DNA of 64,000 bases from Rhodococcus opacus B4 (lineage in GTDB: Bacteria; Actinomycetota; Actinomycetes; Mycobacteriales; Mycobacteriaceae): positions 1,736,001 through 1,800,000 of the forward strand of contig NC_012522.1 of the NCBI RefSeq assembly GCF_000010805.1, written 5' to 3'. The translations under genes and the position numbers were made by a program. Shown piece by piece: positions 62,248-64,000 of this stretch. Position 1 is the stretch's first letter. Every line of letters starts with the position of its first letter. The notes beneath the pieces were generated by a model that searched no databases, was not told the origin of the DNA, and worked only from the letters and a program-made list of their open reading frames with translations.

Positions 62248-62415
62248 CTATTTCTCCGGTTCGGGGGCGTCCGCCTGCAACTCCCCCACCTCCGTCTTGA
62301 GGATCCGCATCGACCGGCCCAGCCCGCGGGCGGCGTCCGGGAGTTTCTTCGACCCAAACAGCACCACGAGGACCACCGCGATGATTGCCCAGTGGCTCGG
62401 GCTCAGTGCCCCCAC
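62248..62415 (-). CDS. tatA: TatA/E-family twin-arginine translocase subunit
   Basis: The protein is 55 aa from the GTG at 62415, with GGAG upstream; the start shares its first base with the preceding TAG stop (TAGTG). A short periplasmic N-terminus, one membrane helix ([20 protein letters not shown] with the hinge FGSKKLP), an amphipathic helix ([16 protein letters not shown]) and an acidic tail define TatA. It is very short for a TatA. No tatB or tatC is adjacent. It ends an operon with a RidA lipoprotein and a flavin amine oxidase. Confidence 0.9.
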
Positions 62416-63089
62416 TACTGGGGCTCCTCGCCGTCGGGGTACACGGCGTCCACCTCGACCTCGACGAGCCAGCCGGCGGCGGGCAGGCTCGCGACCTCCA
62501 GCGCGAACCGGCTGGGCCGCGCGGAGTTCCGTTCCATCGGGGCAGCGGGTTCCGCAGTGCCGAGCGGGACCAGTTCCGTGTCTTCCGTGTCGAGGTTGGT
62601 GTTCGCGAAGAACTGCCGGTAGGCGCGGTTCCAGCCGGCGTAGTCGGCGCGGTCGGTGCCGGGTGCGTTGTCGAGGAACACCCGCATGGTCACGACGTCT
62701 TCGAGGGTCAGCCCCTGCGCCTCGAGATTGTCGCGAATCCGCTTCAGCGCGTTGATGCCCTGCGCCTCGGTGATCGTGACGCCTGCCGGAAGTGCGCCGC
62801 CCGCGAACACGTCGGTGTCGATGTAGGACTCGGGGGTGCCCTCGGGGGCTGCATTGTTGGACGCGCCGGGGCCGATTCCGCTCGACTTGTAGACGGCGGT
62901 GCCGCCACCGATCACCACGCCCTGCGCGATCATCGGATTCGCTTCTCCAGCTTCGAGAACCGACTTGGAGACGAAGGTGCTGCTCGGCGCATCTGCCGCC
63001 GCCTCGTCGGAGGAGCACGACGTCGCCCCGAAAATCAGAGCGGAGGCCGCGAGGGCCGCGGTGACGGCCTTGGTACGAATCGACTTCAC
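62415..63089 (-). CDS. Secreted RidA-family lipoprotein
   Basis: The protein is 224 aa from the GTG at 63089, with AAGGAG 9 bases upstream; a TTG at 63098 is in frame but touches the binding site. Signal peptide with a lipobox (LIFGATSC), then a RidA/YjgF-like domain ([40 protein letters not shown]; end [22 protein letters not shown]). RidA hydrolyses reactive imines in the cytosol; this one is extracytoplasmic. Located between an amine oxidase, a source of imines, and tatA. Confidence 0.85.
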
Positions 63090-63118
63090 AGTGCACAACT
63101 CCTTGTTCGAGGGAACGG

Positions 63119-64000
63119 TCAGGCTTCCTGGGCCACGCGCTGATGGATGTGGGTGACGACGTCGCGGGCGGACGTCAGGGCGCCGTGCTGCCAGGCGATG
63201 GCGTTGGACAGGTGATCGCCGGCGAAGTAGATCTTCTCGACGGGTTCGAGCAGCTTCTCGTACTCGGGCGTGGCGGCCCCGCCGTGCGAGCCGCCGCTTC
63301 CCGCCCAGTTCGCCCAGGCACTCTCGGAGTACTTGGTGCGCCGCCAGCTACCGGAGAACGACGAGGAGATGTCGCGGGTGTACTTCTCGCCGTGGATCTC
63401 CGAGCCCTCCGCGATCGCCTTCGCGAGCCGTTGGCGGTGCGTGAGGGATTCGAACGCCTCTTGCCGCTTGCCGCTGCTGTAGTAGGCCACGACCACACCC
63501 CGGTCGGAGTTGTAGTGGTCGTACGGGAACATGATCTGCGAGATGTCCTTGTCGGTGTTGGACGCGCCGCCGTAGATGCGGTCCTCGGTCTCCCACCACC
63601 GGCGCGAGTACTCGATGCCGAGCTTCCCGGACGACGACGGCTTGGCCGCCTTCAGCGCGGTGAGCACGTCGGCGGGCAGATTGTTCTGCAGTCGCCCGAC
63701 GAGGTGCGGCGGGATGGTGCAGATCGCGTAGTCGGCGGTGATCGATTTCCTCGCGCCATCGGCGGTGTACTCGACGGTGACACCGCCGGACACGTTCTTC
63801 ATCGACGTCACCTCGGCGCCGAAGACGATGTTGTCGGTGCCGATCCGGTCCTGGAACGCATAGTAGATCCGGTCCATGCCGCCGACCGGGGAGAACATCA
63901 TCATCGCCTGGTCGTAGCCGAAGTCGAAGCTGAAGTTGCGGCCGATGCCGCTGCGGATCACTTCCTGCATCGCGAACGGCTTCTTCTCGGTGCCGAAGTT
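63119..64000 (-). CDS. Flavin monoamine oxidase, C-terminal part (runs off window)
   Basis: About 293 C-terminal residues of an FAD-dependent amine oxidase are visible. The reading frame is open to 64000, so the N-terminal FAD motif is outside. The C-terminal FAD-binding block [20 protein letters not shown] and [13 protein letters not shown] fit the L-amino acid/monoamine oxidase family. The start beyond 64000 could carry a Tat signal, given tatA in the same operon. The ridA gene starts 29 bp downstream. Confidence 0.88.

Follow-up and report, generated by a model that had tools for sequence, protein, structure and literature searches.

The window, that is, the whole 64,000-nucleotide stretch of Rhodococcus opacus DNA analysed here, closes with three minus-strand genes lying head to tail, in the order and at the place that an earlier note on this DNA had given. 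The oxidase gene of this unit (lao) runs beyond the window's edge. The unit and its surroundings comprise the following features (window coordinates):

63119..64000 (−): lao, encoding a predicted FAD-dependent L-amino acid oxidase; last 293 codons within the window
63119 to about 64723 (L003:3120-4724): entire lao gene, extending beyond the window edge; 534 aa, TTG start, twin-arginine signal peptide
62415..63089 (−): ridA, a lipoprotein Rid-family gene; 224 aa, GTG start, lipobox GATSC (Cys25), Rid arginine in RPSRFALEV
62248..62415 (−): tatA2, an orphan TatA gene; 55 aa, GTG start, Leu39
62206..62246 (no strand): very stable hairpin with an 18-bp stem, directly after tatA2
60315..62194 (+): ABC-transporter ATPase and permease genes, convergent neighbours outside the unit; role assigned from the sequence
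about 64944-67180, beyond the window (L003:4945-7181): amino acid permease and IclR regulator, divergent, flanking the operon

The gap between lao and ridA is 29 nt, and the likely start of ridA is the GTG at 63089, 9 nt past AAGGAG. At the ridA/tatA2 junction the sequence reads TAGTG, just as had been claimed, with the GTG start of tatA2 (62415) using the G of the ridA stop codon TAG. The hairpin behind tatA2 (folding energy of −49.1 kcal/mol for the stretch; z −8.3) is likely a terminator marking the end of the operon. A terminator pattern scan called it on the + strand only, the side of the convergent ABC genes, and the total of the scan was no higher than for shuffled sequence (2 versus a mean of 1.9), so that the hairpin is distinct by its folding energy alone. 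Symmetric, and situated between tatA2 and the convergent ABC genes, it is perhaps a two-way terminator shared by both. A sigma-70 scan upstream of the operon yielded no site, which carries little weight in a high-GC actinobacterium. Since the gene order is conserved (see below), chance is an unlikely cause of the unit. The three genes are probably co-transcribed.

Over its full length, the oxidase scored 142.7 bits against Pfam Amino_oxidase. Its residues 46-534 aligned end to end with residues 1-489 of PDB entry 2jae (1081 bits), the crystallised L-amino acid oxidase of R. opacus (2jae, 2jb1-2jb3), from which the mature protein differs at 17 of 489 positions (counted by eye). Given this alignment along the entire mature length, the window's protein is the same enzyme, an L-amino acid oxidase, predicted to oxidize L-amino acids with FAD. 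The earlier designation "flavin monoamine oxidase" needs correction in this respect, since the generic monoamine type does not apply. Export of the oxidase had been proposed from the Rid lipobox and the stand-alone TatA; when the N-terminus was read past position 64000, an export signal was indeed present. The protein starts with MAFTRRSFMKGLGATGGAGLAYGAMSTLG, which contains a twin-arginine motif followed by a hydrophobic stretch; the signal itself, TRRSFMKG, lies within MAFTRRSFMKGLGATGG. Using a lenient pattern, the RR motif was found in all 119 loci with a locatable oxidase N-terminus (out of 172 loci, some from genomes represented twice; 52 could not be judged and one lacks the oxidase at a contig end). 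These signals suggest that the oxidase is exported via Tat, and the literature also ascribes a twin-arginine signal to the R. opacus enzyme (PMC5053998; this and the other papers are cited from excerpts). In the same excerpted form, the published accounts of this enzyme mention neither a neighbouring Rid lipoprotein nor a TatA.

The product of the middle gene scored 46.1 bits against Pfam Ribonuc_L-PSP (cut-off 27.3), which places it in the Rid/YjgF/YER057c/UK114 family. Because the RidA-type NCBIfam models remained far below their cut-offs (26.9 bits for TIGR00004, the RidA subfamily; cut-off 106.25), it is a divergent member of that family and not RidA proper. Together with the lipobox GATSC, this bears out the family assignment and the lipoprotein signal proposed before. 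All 38 chosen Rid sequences share the arginine of RPSRFALEV, and nearby acidic residues are likewise constant in the aligned Rid sets. The arginine aligns with one in the solved Rid proteins 9bka and 9bkc; we take it to be equivalent to Arg105 of E. coli RidA. At E 1e-5, a profile search of solved structures with the Rid protein retrieved no more than two Rid proteins. The conserved arginine points to imine hydrolysis as the probable activity of this Rid. RidA and Rid2 of S. enterica, in which the catalytic arginine is present, hydrolyse imines generated by an L-amino acid oxidase, and clustering of rid genes with genes for FAD amine oxidases has been reported (PMC4433059).

Pairs of oxidase and Rid genes are widespread among actinobacteria. 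In the genus sample, Rid was present in 23 of 28 genomes, and the oxidase adjoined it in all 22 that could be tested (in one, the contig ends first). Rid occurred in 42 of 301 genomes of the family sample, in 21 of 294 genomes of a second family, f29 (probably Nocardioidaceae, with groups g72 and g147 probably being Nocardioides and Mumia), and in 24 of 394 genomes sampled across the class, where the oxidase adjoined in all 23 outside the window's genome. A scan of named genomes returned 394 Rid relatives, and among the best 80 of these the oxidase lay within the fetched flank in 80 of 80; Rid copies without an oxidase may occur among the other 314. The named loci, which overlap with the unnamed set, come from Nocardioides, Mumia, Kribbella, Actinoplanes, Micromonospora, Arthrobacter, Cellulosimicrobium, Promicromonospora, Actinomadura, and Rhodococcus, among others. 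Within the best 80, the two genes share a strand in 46 and are divergent in 34, hence the link survives inversion. The divergent pairs (e.g., L233, L239, L257, and L264) include those of Cellulosimicrobium, Promicromonospora, Oerskovia, Isoptericola, and Nocardioides insulae.

On its other side, the oxidase gene is adjoined by a divergent amino acid permease gene (Pfam AA_permease) in all 27 family loci that were long enough (some genomes counted twice), with an IclR regulator behind the permease in all eight family loci that show it; at the loci of other groups, neither was found at E 1e-15. Such neighbours fit a role in amino-acid use. Viral contigs yielded no Rid relative. Of 18 plasmid records with a Rid match, 17 were below 60% identity, and the best (61%) was an 11.9-Mb Nonomuraea record with the oxidase adjoining. 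A plasmid record of Ketogulonicigenium, a more distant match, carries genes for a flavin amine oxidase, a cytochrome c, and RidA. The distant Rid on a Komagataeibacter plasmid (28%) is accompanied by cytochrome c and adjoined by a transposase-like pair, with no oxidase in the stretch fetched.

Judged by pattern, every one of the 51 family loci examined encodes a Rid with a lipobox, whereas none of the 23 class loci or the 16 f29 loci does; among the 80 named loci, nine do, seven from Rhodococcus/Prescottella and two from Kribbella. Most of the Rid N-termini without a lipobox read as ordinary export signals (by eye). For the Rid of the window, the lipobox makes lipidation probable. The two Kribbella proteins (L232 and L234) have a lipobox-like cysteine in IASCS, which may mean that lipidation arose independently there or that the pattern matched by accident. 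At L104 and L107, the Rid starts with PTRRRVLAV or similar, which is twin-arginine-like, so that in some groups the Rid itself may travel via Tat.

Exported pairs of this kind have precedents. In the lao-cccA-ridA cluster of Gluconacetobacter diazotrophicus, an L-amino acid oxidase with a Tat signal, 34% identical to the R. opacus enzyme, is likewise clustered with ridA; in the lao mutant the transcripts of the cluster fall together, and co-operation of the products outside the cytoplasm was proposed (PMC5053998). Unlike the unit in the window, that cluster includes a cytochrome c gene, and TatA is not mentioned in the excerpt. In LAO1-LAO2/RIDA of Chlamydomonas, too, RidA is the partner of a periplasmic L-amino acid oxidase, and the system frees ammonium from amino acids; it is, however, eukaryotic, and neither a Tat component nor a lipid anchor is mentioned in the excerpt (PMC10805672).

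The third gene, tatA2, encodes a genuine TatA by its match to Pfam TatA_B_E (59.1 bits; cut-off 21) and NCBIfam PRK00575 (91.4 versus 72). Besides tatA2, the genome of the window contains two more TatA/B-type matches above the cut-off, namely, a TatA beside the single TatC at C5:593-594 kb and a weaker, TatB-like match at C5:6.6 Mb. The only tatC is thus about 1.2 Mb and the TatB-like gene about 4.8 Mb away from tatA2, in agreement with its earlier description as a stand-alone TatA. As no TatC is nearby, tatA2, if functional, must pair with a TatC encoded elsewhere. TatA adjoins Rid in 21 of the 23 Rid-containing genomes of the genus sample, and in the family sample tatA lies directly behind ridA in 32 of 42, which are also the best 32 TatA matches; the ten without it are G013, G025, G048, and seven of group g6. 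The three-gene order, whose loss in related genomes would have spoken against a functional unit, is therefore conserved. Among the best 80 of the 394 named loci, a linked TatA was present in seven, all Rhodococcus/Prescottella. It was absent from the other 73 (two of which, L265 and L271, end right after ridA), from 14 of 16 f29 loci, and from 20 of 23 class loci, these sets overlapping. Since it is lacking in 10 of 42 family genomes and in most pairs elsewhere, the linked TatA is not strictly required, and genomes without one presumably export the oxidase all the same.

Where tatA is linked, its one-nucleotide overlap with ridA is kept across genera: the 35 loci caught by pattern (some genomes repeat) have TGATG 18 times, TAGTG 16 times, and TAATG once. 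Across 35 loci, uncorrected pN/pS of the linked tatA was 0 to 0.31 in the 21 listed comparisons with enough synonymous change, which indicates that the protein is kept by purifying selection. With the housekeeping TatA encoded in the same genome, the linked TatA shares 72% identity, and it retains the FG hinge and the amphipathic helix. It differs at position 39: tatA2 has leucine there, as does each of the 26 distinct linked TatAs of Rhodococcus type that the pattern caught, while phenylalanine occupies this site in all 37 distinct unlinked TatAs caught (eight from the window's family and 29 from f29). Compared with these eight housekeeping TatAs (one from the window's genome and seven from genomes without a linked TatA), the Rhodococcus-type linked proteins differ at positions 7 and 39. 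Position 14, a further candidate taken from a list of 13 linked and three housekeeping distinct sequences, fails as a distinguishing position in L036. In E. coli TatA, Phe39 has been described as essential (PMC4148689), and an F39A exchange abolishes export of CueO (PMC10092561). Leu39 might weaken the linked TatA; it does not imply loss of function, because leucine is a milder replacement than alanine or glutamate.

Tat genes also adjoin the oxidase–Rid pair outside the Rhodococcus-type loci. At L169 and L170 (g72 of f29), a different tatA lies right behind ridA, with a TGATG overlap; the products share 38 and 42% identity with the TatA of the window, and one has Leu39, the other Phe39. In g60, another genus of f29, Rid occurs in 3 of 49 genomes. 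These three genomes with the pair (L092, L093, and L094) carry a second, complete tatA-tatC-tatB set just upstream of it, all three TatAs having Phe39. The arrangement at L094 is:

552-1988: tatA-tatC-tatB (Pfam matches for the Tat set)
about 2346-3935: lao
3977-4681: rid

A second TatC was found in 3 of 3 g60 genomes with the pair versus 2 of 46 without it (Fisher p 0.0005, or 0.0013 when restricted to the 37 more complete genomes). We built a tree of 33 TatAs over 51 columns, with 11 of 30 inner branches open and the two g72 genomes represented by their linked TatAs alone. It united the Rhodococcus-type linked TatAs in a single clade (98/99) next to their family's housekeeping TatAs, with the window's genome the only one among the Rhodococcus-type linked genomes to contribute its housekeeping TatA. 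The f29 linked TatAs fall among the f29 TatAs (split 100/100). A single clade of all linked TatAs was strongly rejected (AU p 8e-9), one of only the Rhodococcus-type and g72 TatAs weakly (p 0.024). A common origin is possible for the TatAs of g72 and g60 (90/76). Tat genes thus appear to have joined the oxidase–Rid pair on two or more occasions, with the reservation that gene conversion between linked and housekeeping genes inside one genome could mimic separate TatA origins.

We propose, with a probability of roughly 0.62, that the unit is an operon for extracellular deamination of amino acids, which combines an imine-hydrolysing lipoprotein with a substrate-linked TatA that works with the housekeeping TatBC. 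The oxidase would fold and take up FAD in the cytoplasm and then be exported by Tat. Outside the cell, it would convert L-amino acids to 2-imino acids and hydrogen peroxide, and the Rid, held by its lipid on the outer face of the membrane, would convert the imino acids to 2-oxo acids and ammonium, both of which would be available for uptake by the cell. The orphan TatA would be produced together with Rid through translational coupling, and its product would join housekeeping TatB and TatC and bias or boost export of the oxidase. The proposal builds on the gene content, the signals, the linkage and its conservation, the signature of purifying selection in TatA, and the recruitment of Tat genes on more than one occasion; preference of tatA2 for a substrate, and its service to the oxidase, we infer. 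Against the proposal count the many pairs that lack a linked TatA, the possible weakening of this TatA by Leu39, and the remoteness of this Rid from the RidA-type models. The outline suggested by the earlier note, in which an exported oxidase goes with a Rid outside the cytoplasm and with its own TatA, is supported to the extent that it fits the sequence data.

For the TatA, two other readings can be weighed against this one. An extra tatA copy could simply lift overall Tat capacity when oxidase output is high, irrespective of the substrate. The close relationship to the housekeeping TatA of the same genome, the retained hinge and amphipathic helix, and the many genomes that carry the pair without a linked TatA would all agree with such a general booster. 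It would not, however, lead one to expect that the Rhodococcus-type linked TatAs form their own clade and are distinct at positions 7 and 39, nor that Tat genes were recruited to this locus more than once, and we regard it as unlikely, albeit worth serious consideration. That the TatA is a mere passenger, duplicated behind ridA by chance and kept without any specific link to the oxidase, is very improbable: the one-nucleotide overlap maintained across genera, the purifying selection, and the presence beside the pair in f29 of Tat genes from another source outweigh the facts that the linked TatA is missing from 10 of 42 Rid-bearing family genomes and that a count by eye gave second TatA-like genes in 17 family genomes lacking this Rid.

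With respect to the Rid, its main function could be that of a tether or non-catalytic partner that docks the oxidase at the outer membrane face and channels its product, comparable to the Rid-type subunit in Chlamydomonas, where the periplasmic L-amino acid oxidase is reported to have RidA as a non-catalytic subunit (PMC5053998). The constant company of the oxidase (80 of 80 among the best 80 of the 394 named relatives) would be in line with this. Yet the aligned sets show no variation in the catalytic-type arginine or in the acidic residues near it, the lipobox is mostly absent outside the family, so that tethering is not the shared role, and the 28% relative on the Komagataeibacter plasmid has no oxidase in the stretch fetched, though with a transposase-like pair next to it; a mainly non-catalytic Rid is thus quite improbable. 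Going beyond the deamination operon with a substrate-linked TatA, the linked TatA might be a substrate-dedicated adaptor and not a general pore former. With its altered Phe39 and without a long tail, it would be unable to export alone but would bind the folded oxidase and hand it to the housekeeping TatABC. Such adaptors would have evolved twice or more in actinobacteria for this one oxidase–Rid pair, once by duplication of the housekeeping tatA and once from a different TatA source, which in g60 brought an entire second TatABC set. We offer this version tentatively and consider it doubtful.

TatAd of Bacillus subtilis works with its own TatC. The window's TatA, unlike TatAd, has no TatC beside it; the g60 relatives do have an adjoining TatC. 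TatAd, with PhoD, has been named a substrate-specific TatA, and the extent to which TatA takes part in substrate choice is debated (PMC4361764). Short extra TatA-type genes within operons of Tat substrates have precedents, which favour the proposal, in the nos cluster of Pseudomonas stutzeri (TatE) and the nap operon of Campylobacter jejuni (TatA2), with other substrates and in other phyla (PMC4148689). TatA2 of C. jejuni has 57 aa and a glutamate at position 39, where leucine is found here, so that both lack Phe39; it seems unable to work properly without TatA1 and proved not to be specific for nitrate reductase (PMC4148689), which counts against a substrate-linked reading of tatA2.

Pairing of an oxidase with Rid, and its export, is thus of a known kind, and so are operons in which a Tat substrate is accompanied by a TatA-type gene. 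A literature search, with most subscription journals outside its scope, found no description of an operon combining oxidase, Rid, and tatA. As far as these searches show, the lipoprotein Rid of Rhodococcus and its kin, the tatA with Leu39 locked behind it, and the repeated recruitment of Tat genes are new. A conserved, repeatedly recruited tatA that is tied to one Tat substrate and changed at a residue reported to be essential in E. coli represents a ready natural test, and the adaptor version, if true, would be natural evidence that substrate choice resides in TatA itself. The findings also suggest that, under normal conditions, the R. opacus oxidase of known structure may act with a Rid partner at the cell surface and its own TatA, a partnership that may bear on production of the oxidase in other hosts. 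Another substrate-linked Tat set possibly exists in G733, a g60 genome without the pair, in which the second TatABC lies near a sulfatase gene (L294:30-6120), followed by a gene whose product presumably resembles the formylglycine-generating enzyme.
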